NCBI GenBank assembly: GCA_028066595.1
Contig: JALCBJ010000010.1
Location: 1-64,000, forward strand
Source: Thermoanaerobaculia bacterium
GTDB lineage: Bacteria > Acidobacteriota > Thermoanaerobaculia > Multivoradales > J023
Direction: 5' to 3'
DNA: 64,000 nt
The notes beneath the pieces are model-generated. The model was given only the letters and a program-made list of their open reading frames with translations. It searched no databases and was not told where the DNA came from. A program made the translations under genes and the position numbers. Shown here piece by piece: positions 8,834-24,331 of the stretch; within the stretch, counting starts at the first letter, position 1, and each line of letters opens with the position of its first letter.

Positions 8834-9613
8834 ATGTTCCGATTCCGAATCGTCTGGGCGTTGATGCTCTCGGCAGCAATACCCGTCTCGGCGTTGGCCG
8901 ACTCTGGCTCGTCTCCGATGTTCACGGCCGTGATGCCCGATATCGTGGCTCGCTCCATCGAGCTTCACGGCGGCGACTTGTTCCGGCGTTCGGAGGTGAA
9001 TTTCCAGCTTTGCTCGCGAAGCGGCTGTGCCGAGGTTCGCGTGTGGCGCCGAGGCGGTCGGTATGAGCACGAGGTGGAGGGTCGGCTCGGTGGTGCGCTT
9101 CGTCGCCTCCTCGTGACCAACGATGCGGTGAAGCTCTGGACAGAGGCAGGTGAGAGTACGTCGATCGCCCCGGAGGAAGAACAGAGCTGGCGCGATGCGG
9201 CGACGTCTCGGATGTATCACGCGTTTCTGCCGTTCCGGCTGGCCGACCCGAGTGTGCGCTTCGCAGACCTCGGCGTGGAGACCTGGGGCGAGCGGGAGCT
9301 GCATCGTGTAGCCGTGGGATTCGAGGCCGGCACCTCGAGCGCCGACTACGATCAATGGGCGTTTTGGTTCGACGCCGAAACGGCCCGGTTGGAGCAATTC
9401 GCCTACAGCTATCGGGGCTCGCCCGACGGGCTGAGGTTTCGCCAGCTACATCGATTCCGCAGAGTCGAAGGGCTGCTGTTCGCCGACCAGGTCAATCTCG
9501 GCTGGGAGGGTCCGGGTCTGTCGGTCGCCGAGCTGAGTCCGGAGTCGATATCTCGTCTTCGAGAGGTTTCACGGGTGGAGTTTCGTGAGCTGAGCGTTCG
9601 GATCCTGGACTGA
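8834..9613 (+). CDS. Exported LolA-like/DUF6503-like protein of unknown function
   Basis: The 259-aa product has a cleavable signal peptide (FRIVWALMLSAAIPVSALA). The mature part begins with a DIVARSIELHGGDLF segment and continues with FQLCSRSGCAEVRVWRRGG. This layout (short helix, then many antiparallel beta strands ending in a FRELSVRIL strand) is like the periplasmic outer-membrane-lipoprotein-sorting fold and the DUF6503 family. I recognise no catalytic motif. The start at 834 bp past 8000 was chosen because the signal peptide begins there; an in-frame ATG at 8717 would add 39 residues antisense to the aldo/keto reductase start. The 3' end overlaps the tail of the convergent msrA gene by 122 bp. 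Confidence 0.65.
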   Translation: MFRFRIVWALMLSAAIPVSALADSGSSPMFTAVMPDIVARSIELHGGDLFRRSEVNFQLCSRSGCAEVRVWRRGGRYEHEVEGRLGGALRRLLVTNDAVKLWTEAGESTSIAPEEEQSWRDAATSRMYHAFLPFRLADPSVRFADLGVETWGERELHRVAVGFEAGTSSADYDQWAFWFDAETARLEQFAYSYRGSPDGLRFRQLHRFRRVEGLLFADQVNLGWEGPGLSVAELSPESISRLREVSRVEFRELSVRILD

Positions 9614-10433
9614 ACTCGTTCTGCGACCCGGCTTCGGAGCTCGACACACTCATCCTCCGGCGCAGGATCTCTGGGGCCATGCCGAGCTCGTCGGCGGCGT
9701 CGATCAGGTCGCCGTCGTCGCCGAAGGGACCGAGCCAGGAGTTAAGTCTCGTAGCGACTGTTGATTGTAGGAATGCATCGACTGGATCCAGCTGACGGCT
9801 TGCGTGTGTGGCTGGCTGCCGGGTGTATGTGGCCGGCTCCCGGGCCGCCAGCTCTTCGATCAGATCGCCGTGTCCGCGCTGAAGTGAGAATTTCTGATGC
9901 AGGCGTTCGGCTGGCCAGAACGCCGGGTTGGGAACGATGTCGACGTAGACGGTCTCTCCGCGTTGGCGGTGGACGGCGTCCTTGGACCGTTCTGCTATCG
10001 CGCGCTGAGCAGATCCATGCGGCATGATCGCCAGGTGAACCCGCGGATCGGGCCCGGGAGGAATATGGTTGGGCTGACCGCTCCAAAAGACCTCGAGCAG
10101 CGTCTCATACGAGATAAGCGATGTATCGAAGGTCACCTCCACTGCTTCCCGATGGTCGCCGAGATGATGGTAGCTCGGGTCGGGCTGATCGCCTCCTGCG
10201 TATCCCACCCTTGTCGAGATCACACCGTCCAGACCCCCGAACCGGGAGTCTCCGCCCCAGAATCAGCCGACGCCAAAGACGGCGGTGTCGATCGGTGGAG
10301 AGGAGTCTCGCTCGAGGGCGATCGAGGTACTCGTCGGGGGAGCGCCGATGACGAGAAGGGCTGTCGCCAGCAATGTTCCCATGCGACCGGCGCTACGCAC
10401 CGAGATGCCTGTGTGATGACGGGTGATACTCAT
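9492..10433 (-). CDS. msrA: Selenocysteine-containing, exported peptide methionine sulfoxide reductase MsrA
   Basis: MsrA reduces methionine-S-sulfoxide in proteins. The minus-strand frame starts at ATG 10433 after a GGAGG ribosome binding site 4 nt away. It encodes a signal peptide (MGTLLATALLVIGAPP) and then TAVFGVG, TGA, FWGGDSRFGGLDGV and ISTRVGYAGG. The TGA at 10263-10265 (codon 57) occupies the catalytic cysteine of the MsrA motif G-C-F-W-G. The rest of the domain is intact: PSYHHLGDHREAVEV, ISYETLLEVFW, and FWPAERLHQKFSLQ. The C-terminal STVATRLNSWLG extension is typical of one MsrA subgroup. The whole 313-codon frame has no other stop and no cysteine codon. Selenocysteine insertion is therefore inferred; without it, translation would end after 56 residues. 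About 50 low-complexity residues follow the conserved domain and overlap the convergent gene. If UGA is ignored, the only start is a GTG after the active site (10223), which would leave a catalytically dead protein. Confidence 0.88.
10231..10251 (-). promoter_or_regulatory. Candidate bacterial SECIS hairpin in msrA mRNA
   Basis: On the minus strand the bases right after the UGA fold into a 9-bp stem. AGACUCCCG (10251-10243) pairs with CGGGGGUCU (10239-10231), with one U-G wobble and a GUU loop whose first base is G. The loop begins 20 nt after the UGA. Known bacterial SECIS elements lie inside the coding region just 3' of the UGA, with the loop about 16-37 nt away and a guanine in the first loop positions. 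SelB would bind here and bring Sec-tRNA to the ribosome. The stem codes for the conserved residues DSRFGGL, so part of the pairing could be coincidental. Confidence 0.7.
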
Positions 10434-10482: not shown

Positions 10483-10525
10483 AGCTGAACGGCTTTCCGA
10501 AGGGATACGACGGCCTTGTTCAGCT
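10483..10525 (-). terminator. Inverted repeat between sigma factor gene and msrA
   Basis: AGCTGAAC (10483-10490) and GTTCAGCT (10518-10525) are perfect 8-bp inverted arms around the stop codon of the sigma factor gene. A hairpin here could attenuate or process the transcript between the sigma gene and msrA. There is no T run, so classical rho-independent termination is not supported. Confidence 0.3.
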
Positions 10526-11791
10526 CGGCTTCGTCGCGGCAGCCAGGCGCTTCGAGAGAAAGCGGCGCTCGGGCTCGGAGCACGGACAGAGCAGGGCCTC
10601 GCGGTATGAGTCGGCGGCTCCGGCGACGTCTCCGGTTCGCAACAGGAGCTCCGCGCGGGTCGCGGGCAGCAGGTGGTAGCGGTCCAGAGGAGCGAGGTCC
10701 GCCAGCAGAGCGAGACCGGCTTCGGCGTCCTCGTCGTGAGCCACGGCCACGGCGCGGTTGAGCGCCACGATCGGAGTGGGATGTAGCGCGTAGAGTCGAT
10801 CGTAGAGCTTTCGTACCAGTCTCCATTCAGCGCCCGCCGGTGCCGCGTGCTGGGCGGCGATGGCAGCCTGGAGGTGGTAAGTGGTTTCTTTTCCACCAGC
10901 GGCGGCCTGGTCGAGATGGCCGAATCCGCGGGCCACCAACTCGTGATCCCAGAGGGAGCGGTCCTGATCGTCCAGGAGTATCGGATCGCCGTCCTCGTCG
11001 ACGCGGGCACGCAATCTCGACGCTTGAAACGAGAGAAGAGATGCCAAGGCATGGCTTTCCGGCCGTGCTGTCTGCGGATGCTGCGTCAACAGCTGGGCCA
11101 GCCGGAGCGCATCCCGACAGACGTCTTCCAACACATGCTGATCACCCTCGTACGCGGAATATCCGCGGTCGAATATGAGGTAGATGGACTCGAGCACCGT
11201 GTCCAGTCGGCCGGGAAGCTCGTCGCCCGTGGGGACCTTGAACGCGATGTCTTCGCCGCGCAGCAGCCGGCGTGCGCGGACGAGACGTTGGGCCACGGTC
11301 GAAGGTGCCGTGAGGAAGGCGCGGCCGATCTCACGAACTCCGAAGCCGCCGACCGTCTTGAGTACGAGCGCGACGCGCGACGCCTCCGGCAAGGCCGGGT
11401 GGCAGCAAAGGAACGCGAGGCGGAGCTGCTCGTCCACGAGCTCGGTGGCCAGACGACCTTCGGCGGGAGCCACGAAGCGTTCGATGCGCGCTTTGAGGAT
11501 GGGCTCCTTGTCACGAGTGGTGGCGACGCGGCGCAAACGGTCGAGGGCCAGGTTGCGAGCCACTCGATATAGCCAAGCGTCGGGCCGATCGGGTACTCCA
11601 TCGTGGGGCCAGCAGCGCAACGCCTTGACCATGGCGTCCTGGACCACCTCCTCCGCCAGGCTCAGGTGGGCCGGGCCGAACGCGCGCATCAACGATGCTA
11701 CGAGTCGGCTCGATGTCTGGCGAAAGAGGTGGTCGACGAGACCGTGGACCTCCGTCGTGGCTTCGGGCTGGTGGTCGCCCTGCCGCGTCAC
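10520..11791 (-). CDS. ECF RNA polymerase sigma factor with C-terminal TPR-like domain (ECF42 type)
   Basis: The 423-aa protein has sigma70 region 2 at the N-terminus (AEEVVQDAMVKALRCWP, DAWLYRVARNLALDRLRR). Region 4 follows (LALVLKTVGGFGVREIGRAFLTAPSTVAQRLVRAR, quoted in part). A ~200-residue helical C-terminal domain comes next, with GYSAYEGD, HPTPIVALNRAVAVA and DRYHLLPATRAELLLRTGDVAGAADSYREAL; its TPR character defines the ECF42 group. Such factors have no anti-sigma factor and are encoded with DGPF/YCII proteins, as here. The GTG start at 11791 lies 4 bp beyond the stop of the DGPF gene, so translation is coupled. The protein would direct RNA polymerase to promoters such as the candidate at 12215-12241. 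Confidence 0.88.
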   Translation of the reverse strand: MTRQGDHQPEATTEVHGLVDHLFRQTSSRLVASLMRAFGPAHLSLAEEVVQDAMVKALRCWPHDGVPDRPDAWLYRVARNLALDRLRRVATTRDKEPILKARIERFVAPAEGRLATELVDEQLRLAFLCCHPALPEASRVALVLKTVGGFGVREIGRAFLTAPSTVAQRLVRARRLLRGEDIAFKVPTGDELPGRLDTVLESIYLIFDRGYSAYEGDQHVLEDVCRDALRLAQLLTQHPQTARPESHALASLLSFQASRLRARVDEDGDPILLDDQDRSLWDHELVARGFGHLDQAAAGGKETTYHLQAAIAAQHAAPAGAEWRLVRKLYDRLYALHPTPIVALNRAVAVAHDEDAEAGLALLADLAPLDRYHLLPATRAELLLRTGDVAGAADSYREALLCPCSEPERRFLSKRLAAATKPS

Positions 11792-11795
11792 GAGA

Positions 11796-12146
11796 TCAGG
11801 TGAGGTCCGTGCGCCGGATCTCGACCGTGGCTTCGAACTCGAGGTGCGGACACGTCCGAGCGATGGCGACTGCCTCGTCGTAGGACTCCGCCTGGATCTT
11901 GAAGTAGCCGCCAAGAATCTCCTTGGTTTCGCTGAAAGGCCCATCGGTCAGCCGAACTGAGCCACCGGCGTTACGGAGCACGCGCCCCTCGCCGTCGGTC
12001 AGCTTGTCGCCACCGAGAAGCTTCCCGCGCTTCTCGAGATCTTCCGCCCACGCCCCGTACTTGGCGATGATGGCTTGGATCTCCTCGGGCGAGAATTGGG
12101 CAAAATCTTCGGGATTGTCGTACAGGAAGAGCATGTAGTCGGCCAT
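11796..12146 (-). CDS. DGPF/YCII-domain protein paired with the sigma factor
   Basis: This 116-aa cytoplasmic protein contains the LTDGPFSETKEILGGYF signature of the DGPF (YCII-related, PF03795) family. That family has a ferredoxin-like dimeric fold and conserved His/Asp residues in some members. Start ATG 12146 follows an AAGGAG ribosome binding site. DGPF proteins are usual partners and targets of ECF42 sigma factors, and the sigma gene follows after 4 bp. Their biochemical role is not established; I do not assign an enzymatic activity. Confidence 0.88.
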   Translation of the reverse strand: MADYMLFLYDNPEDFAQFSPEEIQAIIAKYGAWAEDLEKRGKLLGGDKLTDGEGRVLRNAGGSVRLTDGPFSETKEILGGYFKIQAESYDEAVAIARTCPHLEFEATVEIRRTDLT

Positions 12147-12364: not shown

Positions 12365-12922
12365 CTAGGTGCGGGGGTCGAGAATCAGACAGGTCGTGGT
12401 GCCGTGAGCGATCAACTGACCGTCTTCGTTCTCGATGCGACCTTCGGCGATGGCGGTCGACCTTCCCATGTGGACGACATAGCCGCGCGCCAGGATCGGA
12501 CCGGACTCGGCCGTCAGCGAGCGTACGAGATTGATCTTGAACTCGAGCGTCGTATACGGCCGTTCGATGGGCAGCTTGGTATGGACGGCGCAAGCCATGG
12601 CCGTGTCGAGCAAGGTGGCGAAGATGCCGCCATGTACGGTACCGAGCGGGTTGTAGAGGCTCTCGTTGGGATGGCACCGGAAGAGGCTGTGCCCTTCCTC
12701 GAACTCCACGGCCTGGATGCCGAGGAGACTCGCGATGGGAGGCTGGGGCAGCTCGCCGCCGAGCATCGCACGGAGGAGCTCCAACCCGGTGGCATAGCGA
12801 CCACTGGCGACCGCGCGGCCGTAGATCGACGGGTCGAAGTACTCGATCGTTCGCGTATGCGGTACACCGAAGTCGAACGGTTCGGACGAATCCGACGCGG
12901 AGGGCCCTTCTCGTTGGTTCAT
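12365..12922 (-). CDS. PaaI-like hotdog-fold thioesterase
   Basis: From the ATG at 12922 this is a 185-aa hotdog-fold acyl-CoA thioesterase of the PaaI/YdiI type. The core has NPLGTVHGGIFATLLDTAMACAV, in which HGG and the following acidic residue form the active region. It then has TTLEFKINLVR and GRSTAIAEGRIENEDGQLIAHGTTT (cited in part). The upstream sequence is open in the same frame and encodes a truncated amine oxidase, so a fused 439-aa reading frame exists from 13684. I chose 12922 because a complete thioesterase with the usual N-terminal extension starts there and an AGGA motif lies about 9 nt upstream. Such enzymes hydrolyse aromatic or medium-chain acyl-CoAs. Confidence 0.75.
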   Translation of the reverse strand: MNQREGPSASDSSEPFDFGVPHTRTIEYFDPSIYGRAVASGRYATGLELLRAMLGGELPQPPIASLLGIQAVEFEEGHSLFRCHPNESLYNPLGTVHGGIFATLLDTAMACAVHTKLPIERPYTTLEFKINLVRSLTAESGPILARGYVVHMGRSTAIAEGRIENEDGQLIAHGTTTCLILDPRT

Positions 12923-13684
12923 GGATCCGATCCTATCGGACTCGCGGCGACCGTCGGCTCCCGAGCGGACCGATTCCACGTGTGCCGACATCTCGATGCG
13001 CAGATCTCGAGCCAAGTGGCGGATGATCTGATCGTAGCCGGCGGGGAAGAGTACATCGCCCCCGGCGAATCCCCCGTCGTCGCCGGCGGTCGCCGACAGC
13101 TGATCGAGATTGGTGGCAGCTTCGAGCTCCAGCGTGGCGCGGAACCACGAGAGCAGACGCTGCTCGAAGTCGTCGAGCTGCTCGTCCGCCAAGAGTCGCC
13201 GAAGCCCTTCGCCCACGGAGATGTCTTCGCCACGCCACCAAGCGCCTCGTGCGAGCCTCGTGAGTAGGGACTCGAACTCCTCACTGTACTCGTCGAGTAC
13301 CTCGTCGCGTATCCGCTGGCCGTCGGTGTCGAACGGCGTGACCTCGTAGTCCGTCGGCCGGGTTTCGATGCCAAGATCTCGGGCCAGAGCCGTGAGCGGA
13401 TTGCCCTTGGTTCCGTGGATCCAAGACGCGCCGAGATCCACCGCGGCGCCCAAGCTGCGGTCCGTCCATACGCGTCCGCCGACGCGATCGCGAGCTTCGA
13501 GGACCACGGTTTCGAACCCGCGGCGCGCCAACTCGCCAGCGGCGGCGAGCCCGGAGACGCCTGCACCTAAGATCAGTACTCGACCACGGTTTCCGCCCTG
13601 AGTTCCGTGCATCTCGCGTCTCGTTGTAGCCAGCGTTGCCAGCAGGGTAAGCAGGAAACTCCTTCGGTCGAGTTGGCCTCGCAT
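12923..13684 (-). pseudogene. Flavin amine oxidase, N-terminal half only, fused in frame to the thioesterase
   Basis: The frame starts at ATG 13684 after an AAGGAG site with a twin-arginine-like leader (DRRSFLLTLLATLA). It contains the FAD dinucleotide-binding fold VLILGAGVSGLAAAGELARRG and the GG-doublet motif DRVGGRVWTD, as in monoamine and polyamine oxidases. It continues to FPAGYDQIIRHLARDLRIEM, then homology ends at about 12960. An intact enzyme needs ~200 further residues, including the substrate cavity and the C-terminal FAD-binding strand, so this is not an active oxidase. A deletion that joined it to the following thioesterase gene is the simplest reading. It could still be translated as a fusion. 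Confidence 0.7.
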
Positions 13685-24023: not shown

Positions 24024-24037
24024 GGCGACGTCTGGAA

Positions 24038-24079
24038 GCCGAGTGACGGTCGCCCCGGTGTGGGCGGTCGTCGCTCGGC
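24038..24079 (+). terminator. Hairpin after the repeat protein gene
   Basis: GCCGAGTGACGGTCGCCC and GGGCGGTCGTCGCTCGGC pair over 18 bp (three G-U wobbles) around a 6-nt loop, 15 bp after the stop, followed by a short TTT. It is a plausible transcription terminator. Confidence 0.65.
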
Positions 24080-24331
24080 TTTGGTGCCGAAGACCTCGCC
24101 GCTCGAAGCGAGAATCCTCGGTGCCGGGTAGCACGTGGTATCCGTCCGTGTGTCCGCCTCGAAGCCCAACCGAGGTGTGAAATGACCCGCTCCGATGGGC
24201 AAGGGCGCCGGAAGTTTTACGATTTTTACGTATCCCACCGTCCTGGCTCTCGTACCTCGTTGCTAGAGTCCTGATGGGCATGGGTGGCGCAGGGTTTGCG
24301 GCCTCCAACAGCCCAAAGCGGCGGTACGAGG

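Follow-up and report, generated by a model that had tools for sequence, protein, structure and literature searches.

The hairpin at 10251-10231 (minus strand) of the 64,000-nucleotide stretch of Thermoanaerobaculia DNA analyzed here (the window) is, with high confidence, a bacterial SECIS element lying inside the coding region of a selenoprotein of the MsrA family, whose in-frame UGA would be decoded as selenocysteine 57 (Sec57). This reading is settled by comparative evidence rather than by geometry alone. Both the mechanism and the selenoprotein family are already known, and the gene is a new example that belongs to the subfamily of the Clostridium (Alkaliphilus) oremlandii enzyme, CoMsrA.

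The gene occupies 9492-10433 on the minus strand, starting at an ATG (10433) that is preceded at a distance of 4 nt by GGAGG, and ending at a second UGA (9494-9492). Read through the in-frame UGA (10265-10263), it encodes 313 amino acids, and no further stop interrupts the 256 codons beyond that triplet. With TGA translated as U, the product contains a single selenocysteine, and there are no Cys codons elsewhere in the frame. The preliminary description had placed the hairpin in an MsrA reading frame, which is borne out by a 102-bit match of the read-through translation to PF01625 (PMSR; residues 50-186; curated cut-off 23.7 bits); the stricter NCBIfam model TIGR00401 scores 79 bits, under its cut-off of 108. 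The UGA occupies the position of the MsrA catalytic Cys (G-U-F-W-G), aligning with Cys16 in the PDB chains of C. oremlandii MsrA and with a UGA in 30 other loci. The N-terminal extension (10320-10433, minus) carries a hydrophobic stretch, MGTLLATALLVIGA, which is possibly a signal peptide, and the C-terminal part (9495-9800, minus), aligned with relatives, includes a counterpart of the CoMsrA-type helical domain with an STxxxRLN motif, and a low-complexity tail. Directly upstream of the gene, an ECF-type sigma factor with DUF6596 lies beside a YCII-domain gene (10520-12146, minus). Also on the minus strand, a single frame (12365-13684) encodes both the N-terminal half of a flavin amine oxidase and a 4HBT thioesterase domain, representing either a true fusion or a deletion that united two genes.

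Downstream of the UGA, an 11-nt spacer (10262-10252, minus) leads into the 5′ arm AGACUCCCG (10251-10243), the apical loop GUU (10242-10240), and the 3′ arm CGGGGGUCU (10239-10231). The arms form nine pairs with a single wobble (U10247-G10235), and the 21-mer has an energy of about -13.4 kcal/mol. The first loop base, G10242, is the conserved one and is separated from the UGA by 20 nt. Thus the stem had been described correctly, both in its coordinates and as a 9-bp structure with one wobble and a GUU loop, beginning at the 12th nucleotide past the UGA with its loop G at 20 nt. Its proposed agreement with bacterial SECIS geometry also holds. According to PMC13188914, the bSECISearch model of Zhang and Gladyshev specifies a loop of 3-9 nt, a stem of 4-16 bp, G in one of the first two loop positions, a spacing of 16-37 nt, and a minimum free energy of at most -7.5 kcal/mol, and the hairpin matches this consensus in loop size (3 nt), stem length (9 bp), first-position G, spacing (20 nt), and energy. 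An Rfam scan of the 64-kb window at gathering cut-offs returned no match.

Geometry alone was rejected as proof of a SECIS element. The looser published model is satisfied by 115 of the 1562 TGA triplets of the window, and 12 of them (the MsrA UGA included) carry a hairpin of at least equal stability, so the element is not identifiable from its shape. Hairpins with 9 bp, a 3-nt loop, and at most one GU pair occur five times on the two strands of the 64 kb, a stem of at least 9 bp stands in SECIS position after 3/1562 TGAs, and dinucleotide shuffling of the 60 nt downstream produced such a stem in 44 of 20,000 trials; by its rarity alone, the hairpin is moderately beyond chance. Among the 12 TGAs with comparably stable hairpins, only the MsrA UGA opens a frame longer than 100 codons (256). 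Elsewhere in the window, a 21-bp hairpin of about -37.8 kcal/mol (24035-24082, plus strand) lies just past the TGA that ends a 1718-codon frame and looks like a terminator.

The recurrence of such stable hairpins after TGAs in a GC-rich window lends some substance to the idea that the UGA is a real stop, that the MsrA gene has decayed or been truncated, and that GC-rich coding sequence produced the hairpin incidentally. Several active-site tyrosines are missing from the protein, which sits on a long branch of the tree, and the same genome contains two ordinary Cys-MsrA genes. However, the frame remains open over its entire length past the UGA, and comparison with the nearest relative (L021; 51% identity, well supported on the tree) indicates that this part is under protein-level selection, because differences are concentrated at third codon positions (0.37, 0.29, and 0.59 for the three positions) and 44 of 78 identical residues are written with different codons. 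The UGA is also conserved across six genomes of the family and many phyla. A genuine stop codon is therefore very unlikely.

Relatives of the gene were sampled from both sides of the Sec/Cys divide. A class-wide search found the internal-TGA gene in five further genomes of the family to which the window belongs (L021-L025), and other UGA relatives come from Bacillota, Chloroflexota, Nitrospirota, Planctomycetota, Actinomycetota, and Thermodesulfobacteriota; two from the phylum of the window and eighteen from the order of Sutcliffiella were added. Cys members of the same subfamily were found in the order of Cohnella, in that of a Natrialbaceae archaeon, and in a few other places. Weak class-level matches with several stops were left out of the relatives. 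One candidate (L026, genome G045) was rejected as a UGA-MsrA since its internal TGA lies off the catalytic site and the gene is an ordinary Cys-MsrA. The resulting comparison sets, 31 UGA and 59 Cys sequences of one subfamily, provide a clean natural experiment, in which the hairpin is kept with UGA and absent with Cys.

The position of the UGA is identical in all 31 UGA relatives. All six apical pairs are present in 26/31 of them and in 0/59 Cys relatives, and at least five pairs in 30/31 as compared with 4/59; G is the first loop base in 30/31 and 37/59, respectively. The Cys-MsrAs (from Paenibacillales, halophilic archaea, and some Bacillales) share the reading-frame context of the window's gene but have TGC or TGT in place of TGA. 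Six more UGA loci outside the 31-sequence set comprise five with a complete core and one with five pairs. Only 29-71% of relatives retain the three basal pairs, and the conserved element is thus confined to the six apical pairs, which together with the GUU loop span 10234-10248 (minus). In one UGA-MsrA locus (L176), where H replaces R/Q, the loop is UUU rather than GUU and the closing pair is broken; this locus is a natural test of the requirement for the loop G.

Pairing in the core has been preserved through double changes at four pairs which, counted from the U of the UGA, are 18-32 (CG, UA, AU), 19-31 (GC, UA, GU, UG), 20-30 (CG, GC), and 23-27 (GC, AU). In the UGA set, the nine pairs together give 35 double-change cells (12.7 in shuffles) and a covariation score of 0.383 (0.183 in shuffles); none of 500 shuffles reached the covariation of the UGA set, and control structures shifted sideways by 1-3 columns scored much lower (0.04-0.12). 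The Cys alignment exceeded its shuffles on none of these measures. Similarly, RNAalifold recovered exactly the six apical pairs from the UGA set, and nothing resembling them from the Cys set. The preliminary description had proposed looking for compensatory stem changes among Sec-MsrA relatives and for loss of the stem among Cys-MsrA relatives; both were found, the former at these four core pairs and the latter in every one of the 59 Cys sequences, as far as the complete apical stem is concerned.

The arms also encode a conserved peptide, and pairing could conceivably arise from codon choice for D-S-R-F-G-G, in which case the UGA would be read as Sec while the 21-nt hairpin would not be the element recognized by SelB. 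Codon use alone yields an average of 4.4 of the six pairs for the window's gene. Yet the same peptide context is unpaired in Cys genes (for example GPDARFGA, in halophilic archaea), and the pairs of the UGA set are maintained by double changes. Synonymous redrawing of codons according to the usage of each gene gave an expectation of 3.77 core pairs for the UGA set, which averages 5.77, whereas for the Cys set 2.50 were expected and 2.46 observed. The Fisher combined p for the UGA set (~8e-19) counts related sequences as independent and is hence too small, but both sets were run alike and the contrast between them is unaffected by the independence assumption; for the window sequence alone, p = 0.03. 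This excess contradicts the possibility, raised at the outset, that the stem is no more conserved than the protein sequence requires. An origin in codon choice alone is more improbable still than a genuine stop.

A covariance model trained on 24 sequences, with the window excluded, found this site alone in the 64 kb (46.6 bits, E 2.5e-9), but the model includes protein-level conservation and Cys loci reach up to 48 bits on it (L234), and it is weighted less as a result. The tree implies about four switches between Sec and Cys, two of them forced by well supported branches, and independent pairs are consequently too few for significance.

The window derives from a genome of 7.5 Mb (228 contigs, 95% complete) in which every part of the bacterial Sec machinery is present: tRNA-Sec (71.7 bits against RF01852; called as SeC with anticodon tca by ARAGORN), SelA (452 bits), a full-length SelB (324 bits), and SelD (355 bits). 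The selD gene of this genome (L255:1528) itself contains an in-frame UGA (TCG-U-AAK) followed by GAGCCC-GGUC-GGGCUC, a hairpin with a 6-bp stem and a GGUC-type loop in contrast to the minimal GUU of the MsrA hairpin, and SelD is apparently a selenoprotein too, the product of a second, independent gene combining a UGA with a hairpin. SelB scored over its cut-off in the window's genome, in 5/5 family members carrying the UGA gene, and in 12 of the 13 UGA-MsrA genomes checked outside the family, compared with 0/4 genomes with the Cys form. The exception, a UGA-bearing MAG (G423) in which no SelB exceeded the cut-off, may be an incomplete genome. Another genome of the family (G021) has SelB over the cut-off and no detected Sec-MsrA, its sole MsrA match being of the Cys type without stops. 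A variant code or a suppressor tRNA that inserts Cys or Trp at the UGA would also account for the frame reading through, but it is the least credible alternative given that the same gene terminates at a UGA without such a hairpin (9494; best stem only -2.0 kcal/mol), that tRNA-Sec and all sel genes are present in the genome, and that hairpin and UGA occur together.

The computational analysis itself established the hairpin, its covariation, its confinement to genes that carry the UGA, and the presence of the Sec machinery; SelB binding, Sec insertion, and enzyme activity are expected for this gene by analogy with known systems. In bacteria, Sec is brought to the UGA by SelB, which carries Sec-tRNA(Sec) and attaches to the hairpin (PMC9312934, PMC13188914). 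Here, SelB loaded with Sec-tRNA(Sec) would bind the apical stem with its GUU loop on the mRNA when the ribosome arrives at the UGA, 20 nt upstream of the loop, and the UGA would be decoded as Sec57, replacing the catalytic Cys of MsrA. Translation would then continue for the remaining codons to the second, hairpin-less UGA.

CoMsrA (PDB 4LWJ, 4LWK, 4LWL, 4LWM, 4U66, 7C13) is the closest known system, matching the family profile in the PDB with 252 bits, while the next MsrA scores 126. It is a natural selenoprotein without a resolving Cys, with an extra helical domain and recycling by glutaredoxin (PMC4479559). The window's protein shares with it the GUFWGPDA(Q/R)FG motif, the absence of a resolving Cys, and a helical C-terminal domain. 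The active-site Glu55 of CoMsrA has its counterpart in E96, which is invariant across a 21-sequence alignment. Several tyrosines differ in the alignment, with Tyr90 replaced by V, Tyr140 by F, Tyr141 by S, and Tyr48 by H, and CoMsrA lacks the hydrophobic N-terminal extension and long tail of the window's protein. In both this protein and L021, RV takes the place of QY (Tyr90) and F that of Tyr140, and the QY/Tyr140 signature of the CoMsrA type is absent from the two. Region 9864-10050 (minus) of the window holds these changes, along with a HIPPGP stretch common to both proteins; each also has a hydrophobic N-terminus, which could act as a signal peptide or membrane anchor. Membership in the CoMsrA type is clear by descent, but the activity may differ from that of CoMsrA, which for this type is the reduction of methionine-S-sulfoxide. 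The loss of active-site tyrosines and the apparent export of this altered branch are the sole unusual feature of the system. The two genes may tentatively be regarded as a divergent branch of exported or membrane-anchored Sec-MsrAs in which Sec now acts on a different substrate, or in a different reaction, outside the cytoplasm, although we consider this proposal rather doubtful.

The finding adds a clear selenoprotein, which ordinary gene calling could easily overlook on account of its UGA, to a genome with complete Sec machinery. The alignment of UGA and Cys members also yields a covariation-supported model of the MsrA-type bacterial SECIS element with a minimal GUU loop.
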